64,000 nt of DNA from Streptomyces zhihengii. GTDB taxonomy: Bacteria; Actinomycetota; Actinomycetes; Streptomycetales; Streptomycetaceae. Position 1 is the first letter of the stretch, and the number at the start of each line of letters is the position of its first letter. The DNA lies in NCBI RefSeq assembly GCF_016919245.1, contig NZ_JAFEJA010000001.1:6348501-6412500 (forward strand). Direction: 5' to 3'. A program made the translations under genes and the position numbers. The notes beneath the pieces are model-generated. The model ran no database searches. It had not been told where the DNA came from and saw only the letters and a list, made by a program, of their open reading frames with translations. Shown piece by piece: positions 14,105-64,000 of this stretch.

Positions 14105-15703
14105 GTGATCACCGCATCCGGTATCGAGCTGCGCGCAGGTGCGCGCGTCCTCATCGAATCCGCCTCCTTCCGCATCGCCAAGGGCGACCGCATCGGCCTC
14201 GTCGGCCGCAACGGAGCCGGCAAGACCACCCTCACCAAGTGCCTGGCCGGCGAGGGCATCCCCGCGGCCGGCACCATCGCCCGCTCCGGCGAGGTCGGCT
14301 ACCTCCCGCAGGACCCCCGCACCGGCGACCTCGACGTGCTGGCCCGCGACCGCATCCTGTCCGCCCGCGGCCTGGACACCCTCATCCGCAAGATGCGGAT
14401 GAACGAGGAGCGCATCGCCACCGGCCAGGGCGCCACCCGCGACAAGGCGCTGCGCCAGTACGAGCGCCAGGAGACCGAGTTCCTGACCAAGGGCGGGTAC
14501 GCCGCCGAGGCCGAGGCCGCCACCATCGCCGCCGCGCTGGGCCTGCCCGACCGGGTGCTCGGCCAGCCGCTGCACACCCTCTCCGGCGGTCAGCGCCGCC
14601 GCGTCGAGCTCGCCCGGATCCTCTTCTCGGACGCCGACACCCTGCTCCTCGACGAGCCGACGAACCACCTCGACGCCGACTCGATCGTCTGGCTGCGCGA
14701 CTACCTGAAGACCTACCGCGGCGGATTCATCGTCATCTCCCACGACGTCGACCTCGTCGAGACGGTCGTCAACAAGGTCTTCTACCTGGACGCCAACCGC
14801 TCCCAGATCGACGTCTACAACATGGGCTGGAAGCTCTACCAGGCACAGCGGGAGGCCGACGAGAAGCGCCGCAAGCGAGAGCGCCAGAACGCCGAGAAGA
14901 AGGCCGCCGCGCTCAACTCGCAGGCCGACAAGATGCGCGCCAAGGCCACCAAGACCGTCGCCGCGCAGAACATGGCCCGCCGCGCCGAGCGGCTGCTGGC
15001 CGGCCTCGACGACGTCCGGGTCGCCGACAAGGTCGCCAAGCTCCGCTTCCCCGAGCCCGCGCCCTGCGGGAAGACGCCGCTGACGGCCGAGGGCCTCTCC
15101 AAGTCCTACGGCTCCCTGGAGATCTTCACCGACGTCGACCTGGCCATCGACAAGGGCTCCCGGGTCGTCATCCTCGGCCTCAACGGCGCGGGCAAGACCA
15201 CCCTGCTGCGGCTGCTCGCCGGGGTGGAGCAGCCGGACACCGGCCAGGTCACCCCGGGCCACGGCCTCAAGCTCGGCTACTACGCCCAGGAGCACGAGAC
15301 CCTGGACCCGGACCGCACGGTCCTGGAGAACATGCGCTCCTCCGCGCCCGACCTCGACCTCGTCGAGGTGCGCAAGACCCTCGGCTCGTTCCTCTTCTCC
15401 GGCGACGACGTCGACAAGCCGGCCGGTGTGCTCTCCGGCGGCGAGAAGACCCGTCTCGCTCTCGCCACCCTGGTCGTCTCCTCGGCGAACGTCCTGCTCC
15501 TCGACGAGCCCACCAACAACCTCGACCCGGCCAGCCGCGAGGAGATCCTCGGGGCGCTGCGCACCTACAAGGGCGCGGTCATCCTCGTCACCCACGACGA
15601 GGGCGCCGTCGAGGCGCTGGAGCCGGAGCGGATCATCCTGCTGCCGGACGGCGTGGAGGACCTGTGGGGCGCGGACTACGCGGATCTGGTCGCCCTCGCC
15701 TGA
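14105..15703 (+). CDS. ABC-F family ATPase (ribosome-associated type)
   Basis: A 532-residue protein with two ABC nucleotide-binding domains and no membrane segment, as in ABC-F factors that bind the ribosomal E site. Domain 1 has GRNGAGKTT, LSGGQRRRVELARIL and LLLDEPTNHLD. Domain 2 has GLNGAGKTT, LSGGEKTRLALATL and LLLDEPTNNLD. The inter-domain linker (about 245-305) is a Lys/Arg/Gln-rich helical pair (EKRRKRERQNAEKKAAAL). The second signature and the short linker resemble housekeeping rather than resistance ABC-Fs, but antibiotic protection cannot be excluded. The GTG start with GGAG nine bases upstream gives the usual N-terminus ITASGIELRAGARVLIE. A leader peptide and hairpins precede it. 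Confidence 0.92.
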   Translation: MITASGIELRAGARVLIESASFRIAKGDRIGLVGRNGAGKTTLTKCLAGEGIPAAGTIARSGEVGYLPQDPRTGDLDVLARDRILSARGLDTLIRKMRMNEERIATGQGATRDKALRQYERQETEFLTKGGYAAEAEAATIAAALGLPDRVLGQPLHTLSGGQRRRVELARILFSDADTLLLDEPTNHLDADSIVWLRDYLKTYRGGFIVISHDVDLVETVVNKVFYLDANRSQIDVYNMGWKLYQAQREADEKRRKRERQNAEKKAAALNSQADKMRAKATKTVAAQNMARRAERLLAGLDDVRVADKVAKLRFPEPAPCGKTPLTAEGLSKSYGSLEIFTDVDLAIDKGSRVVILGLNGAGKTTLLRLLAGVEQPDTGQVTPGHGLKLGYYAQEHETLDPDRTVLENMRSSAPDLDLVEVRKTLGSFLFSGDDVDKPAGVLSGGEKTRLALATLVVSSANVLLLDEPTNNLDPASREEILGALRTYKGAVILVTHDEGAVEALEPERIILLPDGVEDLWGADYADLVALA

Positions 15704-16054
15704 CGCGGACGGGGCTCCCCGGGGGCCGATGATCCACTCCGTCTGGATCATTCGGCCTACGTCTGCTCCGTCATCTGTGTGAGGACGTCTCGTACCACGG
15801 CGTGGCGCCTGGCGGACGCCTGCGCTCCGCCCCCTCCCGGGCGCCCGCCGGTGAAGGCGTCGCTGACCAGCAATTTCGGCCCGGCGGCTGGATCTTTTCG
15901 GCGGCACACATGAATGGAAGATGGCGTTCCGCTCGTGGCGGCCGGCCGTCCCGTCCCCAAGCGTTCCGTACTGACCCTGTCGAATGGGTGGCCAGGATGC
16001 CCGGGAGGGGTGATCATGAGAAGTCCAGAGCGCACTTCCCATGAGGAGGCACGG
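15704..16054. other. Gap with a GATC-containing inverted repeat upstream of gbn
   Basis: No convincing gene. ATGATCCA (15729-15736) and TGGATCAT (15744-15751) form a perfect 8-bp inverted repeat around 7 bases, each arm holding a GATC. Further GATC sites lie in CTGGATCTTTT near 15890 and TGATCATGA near 16012. Short frames such as a 17-codon one starting in the repeat lack a ribosome site. The region probably holds the ABC-F gene end and the gbn promoter. Confidence 0.6.
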
Positions 16055-16276
16055 GTGGCCGAGACTCTGAAGAAGGGCAGCCGGGTGACCGGCGCCGCGC
16101 GCGACAAGCTCGCGGCAGACCTGAAGAAGAAGTACGACTCCGGGGCGAGCATCCGGGCGCTGGCCGAGGAAACCGGCCGCTCCTACGGATTCGTCCATCG
16201 GATGCTGAGTGAGTCCGGAGTCGTCCTGCGTGGACGTGGCGGAGCGACGCGGGGCAAGAAGGCCGCGTCGGCCTGA
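16055..16276 (+). CDS. gbn: Gbn, small GATC-binding nucleoid-associated helix-turn-helix protein
   Basis: A 73-residue basic protein (ETLKKGSRVTGAARDKLAADLKKKYDSGASIRALAEETGRS... read in pieces) with a single helix-turn-helix at about 30-52 (ASIRALAEETGRSYGFVHRM) and a Gly/Arg/Lys tail (LRGRGGATRGKK). From memory it is near-identical to SCO1839 of S. coelicolor, described as Gbn, a nucleoid protein that binds GATC-centred sites and affects development and antibiotic production. The GTG start with GAGGAGG eight bases upstream is chosen over a longer frame whose extra 47 residues have no support. Nearby GATC sites suggest self-regulation. Confidence 0.9.
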   Translation: MAETLKKGSRVTGAARDKLAADLKKKYDSGASIRALAEETGRSYGFVHRMLSESGVVLRGRGGATRGKKAASA

Positions 16277-16327
16277 TCTCCGTATCGGCAGAAAGGCTCC
16301 TTCGGTACACCGGTTCTTCTGCGGTGG

Positions 16328-16359
16328 CCACCCGGGCGGCCGGACGGCTCCCCGGGTGG
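16328..16359. terminator. Imperfect terminator hairpin after gbn
   Basis: CCACCCGGG (16328-16336) and CCCGGGTGG (16351-16359) form a 9-bp stem around 14 bases. It lies about 50 bases past the gbn stop and before the next gene. Confidence 0.5.
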
Positions 16360-16415
16360 TTACTGTGCAGTAGCTCATTTTCACGGGCATGACTGCACCG
16401 AACCGGAGGCGTCCC

Positions 16416-17207
16416 ATGACTTCGCTCGACCCTGTGCTGGACAAGGACGGCGTACGACTCACCGTCGACGGCGCCGTCGCCACGGTGACCCTGACCAAGC
16501 CGGACAAGCGCAACGCCCAGGACTTCGCGCTGTGGCGGGCGTTGACGCAGGCCGGCCGGTCGCTGCCGGGCGACGTGCGGGTCGTGGTGCTGCGCGGCGA
16601 GGGCAAGTCCTTCTCCGCCGGCCTCGACCGGCAGGCGTTCACCCCCGAGGGTTTCGACGGCGAGCCGTCGTTCATCGACCTGGCACGCGGGTCCGACGCG
16701 GAGACCGACGCGGCCATCGCCGGGTTCCAGGAGGCGTTCACCTGGTGGCGGCGGCCGGACATCGTCACGATCGCCGCCGTCCAGGGCCATGCGATCGGCG
16801 CGGGCTTCCAGCTCGCCCTCGCCTGCGACCTGCGGGTCGTCGCCGAGGACGTGCAGTTCGCCATGCGCGAGACCGCGCTCGGCCTGGTGCCAGACCTGAC
16901 GGGCACCCACCCCCTGGTGTCCCTCGTCGGCTACGCCCGCGCGCTGGAGATCTGCGCGACGGGACGCTTCGTCCACGCCGAGGAGGCCGAGCGCACCGGT
17001 CTCGCCAACCTCGTCGTCCCCGCGGAGGAGCTCGACGCCGCCGTCCGCGACCTCGCCGCGGCGCTCCTCGCCGCGCCCCGCGACGCCGTCGTCGAGACCA
17101 AGGCCCTGCTCCAGGGCGCGGCCGGCCGCGGCTACGACGAACAGCGCGCCGCCGAGCGCGCCGCGCAGACCCGCCGGCTGCGCGACCTCGCCGGCCTCTC
17201 CGACTGA
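16416..17207 (+). CDS. Enoyl-CoA hydratase/isomerase family protein
   Basis: Crotonase-fold enzyme of 263 residues acting on acyl-CoA thioesters in fatty-acid breakdown or secondary metabolism. The oxyanion-hole strands are visible as VTLTKPDKRNAQ / GKSFSAGLDRQ and VQGHAIGAGFQLALACDLRVVAED. The usual catalytic Glu position in the second loop reads ETALGLVPDLTGT, where an Asp replaces the common second Glu, so a hydratase activity is likely but not certain. ATG with GGAGGCG six bases upstream is preferred over an ATG nine codons earlier. It stands alone between gbn and the Asp23 cluster. Confidence 0.88.
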   Translation: MTSLDPVLDKDGVRLTVDGAVATVTLTKPDKRNAQDFALWRALTQAGRSLPGDVRVVVLRGEGKSFSAGLDRQAFTPEGFDGEPSFIDLARGSDAETDAAIAGFQEAFTWWRRPDIVTIAAVQGHAIGAGFQLALACDLRVVAEDVQFAMRETALGLVPDLTGTHPLVSLVGYARALEICATGRFVHAEEAERTGLANLVVPAEELDAAVRDLAAALLAAPRDAVVETKALLQGAAGRGYDEQRAAERAAQTRRLRDLAGLSD

Positions 17208-17565
17208 CCGGACCCCTCCGGCACGGACACCGGCCCTCCGGCCCGCCGGACGCCTCCGGCGCGGCGGCGGGCTTCTCGGCGCGGATGGACCGGACGCCTC
17301 CGCAGGCGGCCCGCCCGGCCCGCCGGACGCCTCCGGTTCCGGAGCGGACCCCGTGGCCCGGACGCGCGGCGGCATCGCCGTGCGCCCGGGCCTTCCGTGT
17401 GTCCGGGCCCCCCGATCAGGTGCCGTTTCCCCGGCCCGCCGCATTGCCGGAGCGGGACGGGGCACCCGCACTTAATGTGGGCACGGGGCCGTGCTCCGTG
17501 TCCTGGCGGACACGGGACGGGATCAGGCCCGGGGGAGGAAGTCCACGCCCGGAAAGGATCACGTG
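17208..17565. other. GC-rich gap with short direct repeats
   Basis: No gene is supported in this 358-bp stretch. GGCCCGCCGGACGCCTCCGG occurs at 17240-17259 and again at 17317-17336, with a partial copy (CCGGACGCCTCCG) near 17290. The 3' part must contain the promoter of the Asp23 cluster; a CACTTAATGTGGG stretch near 17470 is the only AT-containing candidate, and I assign no hexamers. Confidence 0.5.
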
Positions 17566-61334: not shown

Positions 61335-61610
61335 ATGACCGAGAGCCCCGACCGTACGCCGCTGCCCCGCTCGTTCTTCGACCGCCCGGTCCTCGACGCC
61401 GCCCCTCAGCTCCTGGGCCGCACCCTGGTCCGCCGCACCGGCAGCGGCCCGATCCACCTGCGCATCACGGAGGTCGAGGCGTACGCGGGGGAGTCCGATC
61501 CCGGTTCCCACGCCTTTCGCGGCCGCACCGCGCGCAACGAGGTCATGTTCGGCCCGCCCGGACACGCGTACGTGTACTTCACTTACGGCATGTCAAGGCG
61601 GTCAGCATGA
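61335..61610 (+). pseudogene. mpg: Resident 3-methyladenine DNA glycosylase, truncated by insertion
   Basis: Codons 1-86 read as a normal MPG/AAG N-terminus: [21 protein letters not shown], the catalytic-Glu segment [42 protein letters not shown]. After TACGGCATG (61584-61592) the frame runs into SRRSA and a stop; the expected continuation (usually H-x-C-x-N) is lost. The break coincides with a drop in codon bias and with element genes downstream. The remainder of the native gene should lie beyond the other end of the element, outside the window. Confidence 0.85.
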
Positions 61611-62218
61611 ACGTTGATCTCCTCGCCCATCCTGCCGAAGAGGTTGCCCCCAGGCTGCTCGGGAGCGTCCTCACCTCCAGGACCCCCGAGGGAACCGTGA
61701 GCATCGCCATCACGGAGACCGAGGCGTACTCCGGTACGGCTGACCCAGCCTCCCATGCCTACCGAGGCCAGACACCCCGTAACGCCGTCATGTTCGGACC
61801 CGCAGGACACCTGTACGTCTACCGGTCCCACGGTCTCCACTGGTGCGCCAACATCGTCACCGGGACGGACGGCATCGCCTCGGCCGTCCTCATCCGGGCA
61901 GGCAGGGTCATCGAGGGCGAGGACCTGGCACGCAAGCGGCGAGGGGAGAGGGTGGAGAGTCCACGGCTTGCCCGAGGTCCGGGGAACTTCTGCCAGGCAC
62001 TCGGCATCACGGCGGAGCACAACGGCGCAGACCTCCTGACAGGTACCTCGGTCGTGCTGTCCGAGGGTGAGCCGGTACCTGCCGCGCTCACCCAGGTCGG
62101 TCCCCGGGTGGGCGTGAGCAAGGCCCACGACTGGCAACACCGGTTCTACCTAGCCGGTGATCCGACGGTCTCGGCATACCGACTGAGCCCGCGAGCCAAA
62201 CCGGCCACGGGAGCCTGA
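61607..62218 (+). CDS. mpg: Element-borne complete 3-methyladenine DNA glycosylase
   Basis: Excises alkylated purines such as 3-methyladenine. The 203-residue protein has [64 protein letters not shown] and [12 protein letters not shown], all expected for a full MPG. It clearly differs from the resident N-terminus (about half the aligned residues by eye), so it is not a tandem duplicate. The ATG overlaps the stop of the truncated mpg (ATGA), with AAGGCGG six bases upstream, so translation can be coupled to the host gene. Confidence 0.9.
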
Positions 62219-62495
62219 GCCGCTGTGTGCCTCGCTGACGGCTCGCCGGCGAGTCGGTGTGGAAGTTGGGTCAGGCGATGCATGATCGTCCGCGAGCGCG
62301 GCTCGTGACGCGTTCCTGGCCGGTCGAGTGACTGCCGACGTGCGTCGGCTCAGGCCAGACGAGTGGGCGTGACTGCGCGCTTCAACTCATCTGGCGAGTG
62401 GGCGGTTGAGTTGGCGCGCTGAGCGAGGTGGACAGTCGGGAGTGCAGTGACACCCGGCCGCCCGCCTGGCCCGGATCCTTGCGAGGATCCTCGGC

Positions 62496-63128
62496 ATGAC
62501 CTCGTTCTCGGCCGATCCTGATGGCTCCGACGCCCCCTTCACCGGGATCGGCGATCCCGTCCTCGTCGTCACGGACAAGCGGCGAAGCCTTGTCGCCGTG
62601 GCTGGCGAGCGCGAGTACGACGAGGCGGAGACGGTTGGTCTCTTCCACGTCACCGACCGCGCCCGCCGTCGCTGGCTCTTGCTATCTCGGTACCCCGTGA
62701 CCGCGATGGCTTTCCATCCGACTCTCCCGCTTCTCGCCGTGGGATCAGGCGAGTACGACGGCGGCTACTTCTTCGAGGGGGAGCTTCTCCTCGTCCACTT
62801 GGAGACCGGTACCGCCGTGTCACTCATCGAACACCACCTCGGCCGCCAGGTCCTCGGACTGGAGTGGCTGAGCCATCAAGAGCTTCGCGTCCTCATGGCG
62901 CCGCCCGACGACTGGAAGGACGGCAAAGCCCACGTGGAAGGACACACCGCCGTGGTGCACCGCTCCGACTGGACCACGGTCGAAGCCAAGTCGCTCACCG
63001 GCCGCGATCTGGCGGGCCCGCGAGGGCCGGCGCCTCGCCTCGACCACCGTGAGGCTGCCAAGCGCGCGGTCGCCAGGCTGGCCGTGCCCCAGACTCGGCG
63101 ACACGGCATCAGTGGAGCACACGGGTGA
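62496..63128 (+). CDS. Hypothetical element protein with propeller-like strands
   Basis: A 210-residue protein. The first two thirds contain alternating hydrophobic strands and one WD40-like unit (VTAMAFHPTLPLLAVGSGEYDGGYFFEGELLLVHLETG, in part), then VLGLEWLSHQELRVLMAPPDDW. The C-terminus is Arg/Lys/His-rich (DHREAAKRAVARLAVPQTRRHG). I recognise no family. GAGGATCC precedes the ATG. The gap before it (62219-62495) shows nothing beyond a CTCGCTGACGGCTCGCCGGCGAG-like palindrome. It could be cargo of the element, for example a defence or sensor component; this is speculation. Confidence 0.7.
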   Translation: MTSFSADPDGSDAPFTGIGDPVLVVTDKRRSLVAVAGEREYDEAETVGLFHVTDRARRRWLLLSRYPVTAMAFHPTLPLLAVGSGEYDGGYFFEGELLLVHLETGTAVSLIEHHLGRQVLGLEWLSHQELRVLMAPPDDWKDGKAHVEGHTAVVHRSDWTTVEAKSLTGRDLAGPRGPAPRLDHREAAKRAVARLAVPQTRRHGISGAHG

Positions 63129-63296
63129 CGATCGGTCTCCACGAATCGCCAGATGAAGCGCTCAGTCACAGTGAGGTGGCCGGGGTGCGTCAGCGGATGG
63201 CCGGACAGAGCAGCGCCACACGGGACGGCTCCCTGAACGGGGTCCTCCCTCTCTCGTAGCTGAGTGATCTCCGGGCCCTTCTCGCCGGGTATGACG

Positions 63297-63332
63297 ACGG
63301 GCCCCGCCCGACTCTCGTCAGACAGGGCCCGT
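63297..63332 (-). terminator. Possible terminator after the serine recombinase
   Basis: ACGGGCCC (63297-63304) pairs with GGGCCCGT (63325-63332) around 20 bases, about 45 bases past the recombinase stop. The rest of 63129-63377 shows no gene. Confidence 0.45.
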
Positions 63333-63377
63333 GCTCACTTCGCGCGGACAGCCGACTCGGCCCTCCGCGACCGGATC

Positions 63378-64000
63378 TCAGGGGTTCCGGAACGTGATCC
63401 GGCAGTGCTCGCCCTTGAAGGACCGGACCCCCCGACCGCGCGGCATCAGCTCGACTCGCTCGCAGACCTGCATGACGACGGTCCGCACGTAGTCGATGCG
63501 GTCGGGGTCCTCGTAGTCCAGTTCCTCCCACAGGTACTCGACGTCGCCCAGGTCGACACGCGCCCGCTGTGATGCCAGGTCTGCCAGCTCGGCCCTGATC
63601 TTGGTCAGGTCGGCGTCACACCTGCCGATGCCCGCCCGCAGGGTCGACGCGTCGATGTCCCCTACGGCGAACATCTCCGCCAGGGCGGTGCGCCTCTCGG
63701 ATGCGGCCGTCTCCTCGGCCAGCAGTTCGGCCTCTCGCTCCTCGTCCGCGGCATCCGTGGCCGGTGCCGCGTTCCACTCCTCGGCCCTGTCGATGACCTT
63801 CCTGACCACGAACGAGTCGAGCGGGTCCGCTGGGCAGGTGATGCACCGGCCACCCGAGCAGGTGTAGATGCGGTACCGCTCGCCCGCCGCGTTCTTCTTA
63901 CTCCACCCTTGAGTGACGACGGCCTGACACTTCGAGCAGCGGACCACGCCGGACAACAGGGCCTTGCGCTTACCGCCGCCGCCCGTGTTGCGCTCGGGGT
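63378..64000 (-). CDS. Large serine recombinase (integrase), C-terminal part
   Basis: The frame is open to the window edge and ends in TGA after 207 visible residues. It shows a recombinase zinc beta-ribbon (LLSGVVRCSKCQAVV ... RIYTCSGGRCITCPADPLDSFV), a long coiled-coil-like helix (EAELLAEETAASERRTALAEMF ... DLTKIRAELADLASQ) and a C-terminal helix-strand ending GEHCRITFRNP. This is the C-terminal half of large serine integrases (phiC31/Bxb1 type). The N-terminal catalytic domain and att site recognition region lie beyond base 64000. Confidence 0.9.
   Translation of the reverse strand, partial: PERNTGGGGKRKALLSGVVRCSKCQAVVTQGWSKKNAAGERYRIYTCSGGRCITCPADPLDSFVVRKVIDRAEEWNAAPATDAADEEREAELLAEETAASERRTALAEMFAVGDIDASTLRAGIGRCDADLTKIRAELADLASQRARVDLGDVEYLWEELDYEDPDRIDYVRTVVMQVCERVELMPRGRGVRSFKGEHCRITFRNP

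Follow-up and report, generated by a model that had tools for sequence, protein, structure and literature searches.

A split glycosylase gene at the edge of the window

Why does the methylpurine-DNA glycosylase gene (mpg) of Streptomyces zhihengii break off after 86 codons and run directly into a second, complete and clearly different gene of the same family? The locus lies at the right edge of a stretch of 64,000 nucleotides (contig 1, NZ_JAFEJA010000001.1, positions 6,348,501 to 6,412,500) of the 9.73 Mb genome; the window hereafter means the whole of this stretch. The right edge of the window very probably contains the left-hand portion of a small integrative element that is site-specific, has mpg as its target and carries a gene, MPG2, replacing the one that it splits. 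At the level of sequence, comparison with relatives shows the exact insertion in mpg, both native halves of the gene, the linkage to a single integrase clade, the replacement gene at the junction and the retention of MPG2. The parts of the element visible in the window are as follows.

61335..61610, + strand: mpg', 5' fragment of the native gene for methylpurine-DNA glycosylase; its 86 native codons end at 61592 and are followed by element-derived SRRSA and a TGA stop
61581..61593, + strand: core of the left attachment site, attL (ACTTACGGCATGT in the window); host-matching on the left and element-constant on the right, from 10 empty mpg genes, 41 junctions and the right attachment sites (attR) of relatives
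61594..61610, + strand: left arm of the element (CAAGGCGGTCAGC); its AAGG may be a ribosome-binding site
61607-61610, + strand: ATGA overlap of the mpg' stop and the MPG2 start, inside the left arm
61607..62218, + strand: MPG2, the replacement gene, a complete divergent methylpurine-DNA glycosylase of 203 amino acids with a full-length PF02245 domain
63378..64000, - strand, continuing past the window: 3' part (206 codons) of a large serine integrase with a zinc ribbon; full length in the relative L096

The fragment mpg' covers only positions 1-73 of the 181 positions of the Pfam profile PF02245, and its homology to the other MPGs of the genus ends after codon 86, at 61592. MPG2 spans positions 3-181 of the same profile (E 2.3e-65), is 54% identical to the native stub across the shared part and aligns with solved 3-methyladenine DNA glycosylases. 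Its full-length domain and conserved active-site residues place it in the MPG/AAG family. The motifs TETEAY and ASHA, which we take to be active-site motifs with the residue roles of this family, are present in 48 and in all 49, respectively, of 49 MPG2 proteins. MPG2 starts 14 bases past the last native codon, and its ATG (61607-61609) overlaps the TGA of mpg' (61608-61610). The stop of the integrase lies 1.77 kb from the start of MPG2 and 1.16 kb from its end. A preliminary description of this DNA had reported that the homology of the native MPG stops after residue 86 at 61592, that a complete, different MPG begins at 61607 with its ATG overlapping the stop, and that a large serine recombinase follows 1.8 kb on. 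The profile matches, the distances and the zinc ribbon agree with it in all these respects.

The recombinase zinc-ribbon domain of the integrase fragment (206 amino acids) scores above the cut-off, and the fragment is 98% identical to the full-length integrases P0121 and L096. In both of these, PF00239 (Resolvase) and PF07508 (Recombinase) are above the cut-off and PF13408 is just below it; P0121 also matches a PHROG integrase (3.8e-77). The Resolvase catalytic, Recombinase and zinc-ribbon domains together mark a large serine integrase, of which the window shows the C-terminal 206 amino acids.

The attachment site in mpg

Is the break in mpg a defined attachment site? We compared 54 loci, 41 of them drawn by MPG2 and 13 found via integrase searches, with uninterrupted (empty) mpg genes. 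At the insertion point the empty gene reads TTCA(C/T)CTACGGCATG|TGG in 10 empty genes, and this stretch, the presumed host attachment site (attB), is at least 84% conserved at every position among 31 empties. In 41 junctions, host-like sequence runs to GGCATG and is followed by the constant arm TCAAGGCGGTCAGC and then by the start of MPG2. Insertion is therefore at one position; sequence on the host side differs from one host to another, and that on the element side does not change. The arm has at most 3 mismatches in 44 of the 54 loci, so that the junction is not a product of chance, and the overlap ATGA or GTGA is found in 53 of them.

The far end of the insertion is readable in relatives. 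An example of attR is GTTACCTACGGCATGTGGCACTGC; in some copies, including L096 and L098, bases of the attR core have changed or are missing. Native 3' halves of mpg were recognised downstream in 39 of 54 loci. When the two flanks were joined in six loci, four of them (L096, L078, L104 and L143) gave a full native MPG, while in L102 the joined frame is shifted and in L064 it meets an early stop. The relatives thus have attL and attR with a common core as well as an empty attB, as a site-specific integrative element does. The proposal in the preliminary description that mpg serves as attB, and that the native halves would rejoin, is in this way supported from the relatives, whose empty genes match across the junction. 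The integrase starts ~60-205 bp inside attR and reads into the element, so the integrase and MPG2 would diverge from the element's own attachment site (attP) in the presumed circular form.

These data suggest the following course of events. The element would use codons 83-87 of mpg as attB, and its serine integrase is the likely catalyst of recombination between attP and mpg, by which the gene is split. The left junction would then form a two-cistron unit of mpg' followed by MPG2, and MPG2 would be read from the host mpg promoter by translational coupling or re-initiation. As the host part ends at a stop in the window, and likewise in the 27 of 54 loci with an intact stub, the function would need to come from a separate complete gene. 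MPG2 is a plausible source, as a complete xenologous glycosylase that may take over the role of mpg. Because MPG2 lacks the attB sequence, it would take over the function without itself being a target, and might be immune to further insertion.

One integrase clade at mpg

How closely is the integrase tied to this site? Among 392 genomes drawn from the genus, MPG2 (called at 70% identity or more) is present in 41, another 326 have weaker, native-like matches only and 25 have none. The two types are clearly separated, as no best E-value falls between 2.1e-86 and 2.4e-54. A scan of the genome contigs with the full-length query P0121, from L073, returned 15 integrase loci in Streptomyces and Actinacidiphila, and all 15 have MPG2 in mpg. 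In a family draw of 394 genomes, four integrase loci were found at E 1e-60, all at mpg; one of them is a record among the 15. Serine integrases next to mpg in other genomes, for which the preliminary description had proposed to look, are thus found at every locus of both searches, and comparison with the relatives supports its suggestion of a serine integrase together with a full, divergent replacement copy coupled to the split gene. We also considered that related integrases might aim at mpg in general. This was rejected, as the stretches around 12 integrases at 29-40% identity, 6.9-19 kb each, were all free of MPG; the Micromonosporaceae integrases (~49%) lay outside this comparison.

Could the two genes have come together without an integrase? 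An old duplication of mpg, or plain horizontal transfer by homologous recombination with the integrase as a chance neighbour, would fit the 27 of 54 two-mpg loci in which no integrase sequence was found, and MPG2 could also spread through recombination of flanking DNA. The bases of the junction, however, hardly differ from one host to another, and the native halves flank the insert and rejoin. The wide gap between MPG2 and native matches (best E at most 2.1e-86 against at least 2.4e-54) and the confinement of the integrase clade to mpg (15 of 15 loci, against 12 of 12 MPG-free stretches for the more distant integrases) also speak against it, and we consider this explanation very improbable. 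According to the preliminary description, the attachment-site model would fail if strains without an integrase had the same two-mpg arrangement. Taken literally, that is the case in these 27 loci, and in 16 of them the sequence can be read as far as the downstream 16S gene, which makes the absence a real one there. We nevertheless keep the model, and read it as extended, since the integrase-less loci and those with integrase fragments together form a graded series of decay.

Retention of MPG2 and decay of the element

What remains once the element has decayed? Integrase sequence of any length is present in 27 of 54 loci, and at least 400 residues are covered in 11. In 13 of the 41 MPG2-drawn loci there is less than 2 kb of sequence after the MPG2 start, and failure to see an integrase or 3' half carries less weight in them. 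An intact mpg' stub, with neither stop nor frameshift, is present in 27 of the 54 loci and ends in all 27 at a TGA overlapping the MPG2 start; no separate mpg' match was found in L075, L092 and L094. MPG2 itself is open in 51 of 52 readable loci (it is frameshifted in L099 and masked in L094 and L095).

The ratio of nonsynonymous to synonymous substitution rates (dN/dS) was obtained for 49 of 53 loci, leaving out L100 because it is partial, L094 and L095 because they are masked, and L099 because its MPG2 is frameshifted. The median pairwise value is 0.196 for MPG2 (49 loci) and 0.202 for native mpg (26 empties). MPG2 is under purifying selection like native mpg. Its dN/dS is 0.159 in 14 hand-picked loci with a long integrase and 0.214 in the other 35, which count as those without integrase. 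The in-frame stubs have a value of 0.240, compared with 0.174 for the same codons in empties. The open frames of MPG2 together with this dN/dS pattern indicate that selection keeps MPG2 and not the stub. Selection would thus preserve MPG2 while the integrase, the cargo, mpg' and the 3' half 'mpg decay.

In L094 (genome G272), an MPG2-like gene of 70% identity has Spo0M nearby and no matched native mpg fragment, and the further sequence is masked. This is possibly a very old complete replacement.

The retention of MPG2 regardless of integrase loss would also be expected if it were adaptive cargo with another lesion range, for example against alkylating natural products, and the takeover of mpg a by-product. 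MPG2 is indeed of a divergent type, with a RSHG[IL]H stretch found in 3 of 29 other actinobacterial MPGs. Its position argues the other way: MPG2 begins right at the crossover, 14 bases past the native codons and with its start overlapping the stop of mpg', and looks built for restoration. We therefore regard adaptive cargo as an unlikely account, and prefer that of a replacement gene carried by an mpg-targeting element.

At the attB-like stretch, 49 of 49 MPG2 proteins read RSHGLHW, where the native mpg of 30 of 31 empties encodes FTYGMW. A special recoding of MPG2 at this stretch was considered and rejected, because RSHG[IL]H also occurs in the 3 of 29 MPGs of the phylum draw and descent of MPG2 from such a type explains the stretch more simply. 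Of the rows in that draw, two of 29 (L150 and L156) belong to the genus Streptomyces, as does L161. The MPGs L147, L151 and L158, from another actinobacterial family, have RSHG[IL]H in common with MPG2 and may point to its donor lineage.

Repeated insertion

Did the element enter mpg once or many times? The gene upstream of mpg' in the window, Spo0M, lies on the opposite strand and served for a host tree of 86 rows, namely 31 empties and 55 carriers, three of which are second records of genomes already included; L100, without Spo0M, was dropped. The carrier state changes 24 times on this tree, and at least 12 of these changes are forced by strongly supported branches. Synonymous divergence (dS) of MPG2 is uncorrelated with that of Spo0M (Spearman -0.002, 1,176 pairs), and the MPG2 value is the smaller one in 820 pairs. 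The nearest row to the window strain, L136, is empty, has an open native MPG and is 90% identical in Spo0M. On this sequence evidence, insertion of the element in mpg is recurrent, and the element may time and again serve as a vehicle for exchanging a housekeeping gene of DNA repair.

Forms of the element and a possible larger parent

What is it that moves? Forms with both ends and an open integrase range from 2.2 to 11.8 kb. The core-to-core lengths are 2,195 bp in L098, 3,417 bp in L096, 4,740 bp in L101 and 11,847 bp in L143. Streptomyces sp. MUM 203J (L096) has the architecture closest to the window and a complete structure. The cargo varies and includes a GNAT acetyltransferase in L101, a sulfatase-modifying-factor-like protein in L107 and a resolvase in L057. 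In L143 there are in addition weak matches of one protein to phage replication initiators (2.9e-11) and of an HTH_17 protein to excisionase/DNA-binding PHROGs, as well as an XRE/DUF5753 regulator adjoining DUF6879.

The element of Streptomyces sp. AC1-42W (L098) is the smallest complete form and consists of MPG2 and an open integrase with nothing else. In L073 the integrase starts with CTG where other copies have GTG, and its frame is otherwise open.

The small forms might be remnants of a larger plasmid-like element, satellite or prophage, that is, non-mobile internal deletions kept for MPG2. In favour of this, L143, whose mpg halves rejoin to a full MPG, has the initiator-like (weakly matched), HTH_17, XRE/DUF5753 and DUF6879 proteins; XRE genes that look alike by eye are found in L057, L097 and L103, and a continuous size series leads down to small scars. 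Other findings do not fit a larger parent. Small forms such as L096 and L098 have open full-length integrases. Pattern scans of IMG/VR gave no MPG2 stretch and no confirmed integrase relative, and in the records of phages and plasmids nothing reached 60% identity. The search for a parent among phages or plasmids gave none, the one plasmid match covering 3% of the L143 cargo query and the one viral contig, L201, being a 25% relative. The largest form (L100/L143) has 17 open reading frames (ORFs) after filtering by GC content at third codon positions (GC3). Pfam scans of 14 of them showed no recognisable gene for structural proteins or conjugation, and the structural or packaging genes of a temperate phage were likewise not recognised in the 8 scanned with PHROGs or in those 14. 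We find the case for a larger parent evenly balanced. It concerns what moves and is compatible with our preferred reading of an mpg-targeting element that replaces its target.

More tentatively, and with somewhat less confidence, we suggest that a two-part selfish unit of a serine integrase and an attB-free replacement of its target, as small as 2.2 kb, could spread by breaking and substituting mpg. By the same tentative account, native mpg would have been displaced in about one in ten of the Streptomyces species sampled (41 of 392), some lineages having MPG2 only. If true, integrase attack would be a recurrent driving force behind the xenologous replacement of a core gene. The element shows a clear route for many swaps of a conserved gene by a distant homologue within one genus. 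The stages are preserved side by side, from the empty site through fresh insertion and decayed element to the replacement gene almost alone. The question of whether replacement genes of mobile elements are mere patches or change the DNA-repair range of the host becomes testable. The system also offers a candidate integrase with a conserved attB near the rRNA operon in Streptomyces, and integration there might leave glycosylase function intact.

The right-hand side of the window element

How long is the copy in the window itself? Past the window there are 5,000 bases, then partial 23S rRNA and 5S rRNA. Empty relatives have their 16S rRNA ~0.9 kb beyond the point of insertion in mpg. Measured from the core, the 16S gene is 0.85-0.96 kb away in three carriers and four empties; a fifth empty, L049, was left out as its core differs from the search string. 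From the 16S-to-23S spacing of 16 carriers, the 16S start in the window genome was placed 4.27-4.31 kb after the MPG2 start. This rRNA spacing suggests an element of ~3.3-3.5 kb, similar to L096 (3,417 bp). The 5' part of the integrase, attR and the native 3' half of mpg would then lie in the first 5,000 bases past the window.

Several observations weigh against an mpg-targeting element that replaces its target. For the window's own copy, the attL side alone is readable, and the 5' part of the integrase, attR and the mpg 3' half are not. A native C-terminal query against the whole genome matched only MPG2 and weak hits, and the mpg 3' half was not found in the 100 kb read, both searches leaving uncovered the 5,000 bases directly after the window. 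Since 25 of 392 genomes have no MPG match, mpg is not strictly essential. Long integrases are also few. Among the 11 loci covering at least 400 residues, 6 have a single open frame that runs from the N-terminal motif through to the end, whereas the other 5 carry a frameshift or are cut, and 3 of the 41 MPG2-drawn loci reach that length (two further ones, L004 and L057, run into masked sequence). As to recurrence, the changes on the Spo0M tree cannot separate gain from loss, and their number (24) is close to the mean of a shuffle control (25.4), which gives no clustering signal either way. Carriers were gathered by MPG2 or integrase and empties by nearness or large contig, so the shuffle value says little.

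Relation to known systems

Is an element of this kind already known? SXT-type integrative and conjugative elements in prfC and staphylococcal cassette chromosome (SCC) elements in rlmH integrate in coding genes with the function preserved. They replace one end of the gene, with a new 5' part and promoter or with the same 3' codons, and not the whole gene. The present element differs from both in integrase and host, and the gene replaced here is a whole one. Large serine integrases are also found in Streptomyces phages such as phiCAM, phiScoe3 and Samy, and phiC31 is another serine-integrase phage of Streptomyces. The closest phage match is the phiCAM integrase at only 35.5% identity, phage records yielded nothing at 60% identity or above for either the integrase or MPG2, and no structural genes were recognised in the element. 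Phage Samy is described as integrating in a host coding gene (PMC12924846).

Genomic islands are reported to restore commonly the gene that they enter (PMC12884075; PMC10111431), the recombinant gene being kept functional by a replacement sequence carried in attP (PMC10111431). The islands of tRNA/tmRNA (transfer and transfer-messenger RNA) and protein genes treated with TIGER/Islander resemble the present case in having an integrase, attL and attR, a split target and a preserved function (PMC12884075, PMC10111431, PMC4383910). In those islands the target is rebuilt from host and element parts; here, in contrast, the host part stops after SRRSA, and a complete separate gene, ~50% identical, follows as an overlapping second cistron. 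The element works like a target-restoring island, but by whole-gene replacement. Target restoration is thus already known; in the open-licence literature searched, we found no complete divergent copy replacing a target in print, and no integrase element that clearly brings along a full substitute for its own target. What is added here is the population picture of a restoring element whose patch gene would replace the host gene for good.

The preliminary description knew of no Streptomyces element with an mpg attB, and our search of the open-licence literature likewise found no mpg attachment site in Streptomyces. Outside the genus, the serine-integrase mycobacteriophage Bxz2 is reported to integrate in the putative DNA glycosylase gene Msmeg_5156 of M. 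smegmatis (PMC9262239; PMC2884959), where its attB-4 has a 4-bp common core (PMC2884959). Bxz2 differs in being a phage, and one of another genus.

Actinomycete integrative and conjugative elements (AICEs) of Streptomyces are described as decaying to a partial integrase and remnants (PMC9513070). The present element is similarly a decaying integrative element, with a replication-like (weakly matched) and an HTH_17 protein in L143; unlike AICEs, it has mpg as its target and carries a replacement gene. The word glycosylase is absent from PMC9513070. From the AICE set of integrase, Rep and TraB, L143 has an integrase and a weakly matched initiator-like protein; no TraB-like protein was recognised in general scans of those L143 proteins that were scanned, and no search aimed at TraB was made.

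Other features

One further gene lies between MPG2 and the integrase.

62496..63128, + strand: ORF210, a cargo protein of 210 amino acids, with copies in the same place in L096 (99%) and L066 (94%)

ORF210 has no match in Pfam, PHROGs or PADLOC. It has 126 relatives at E 0.001, and those listed are mostly from Streptomyces and Kitasatospora. One among the 120 listed is labelled a PQQ-binding-like beta-propeller repeat protein, and the other listed ones are without a name. In L056 (genome G107, raw positions 15521-17230), the element contains a group II intron reverse transcriptase/maturase with an HNH domain.

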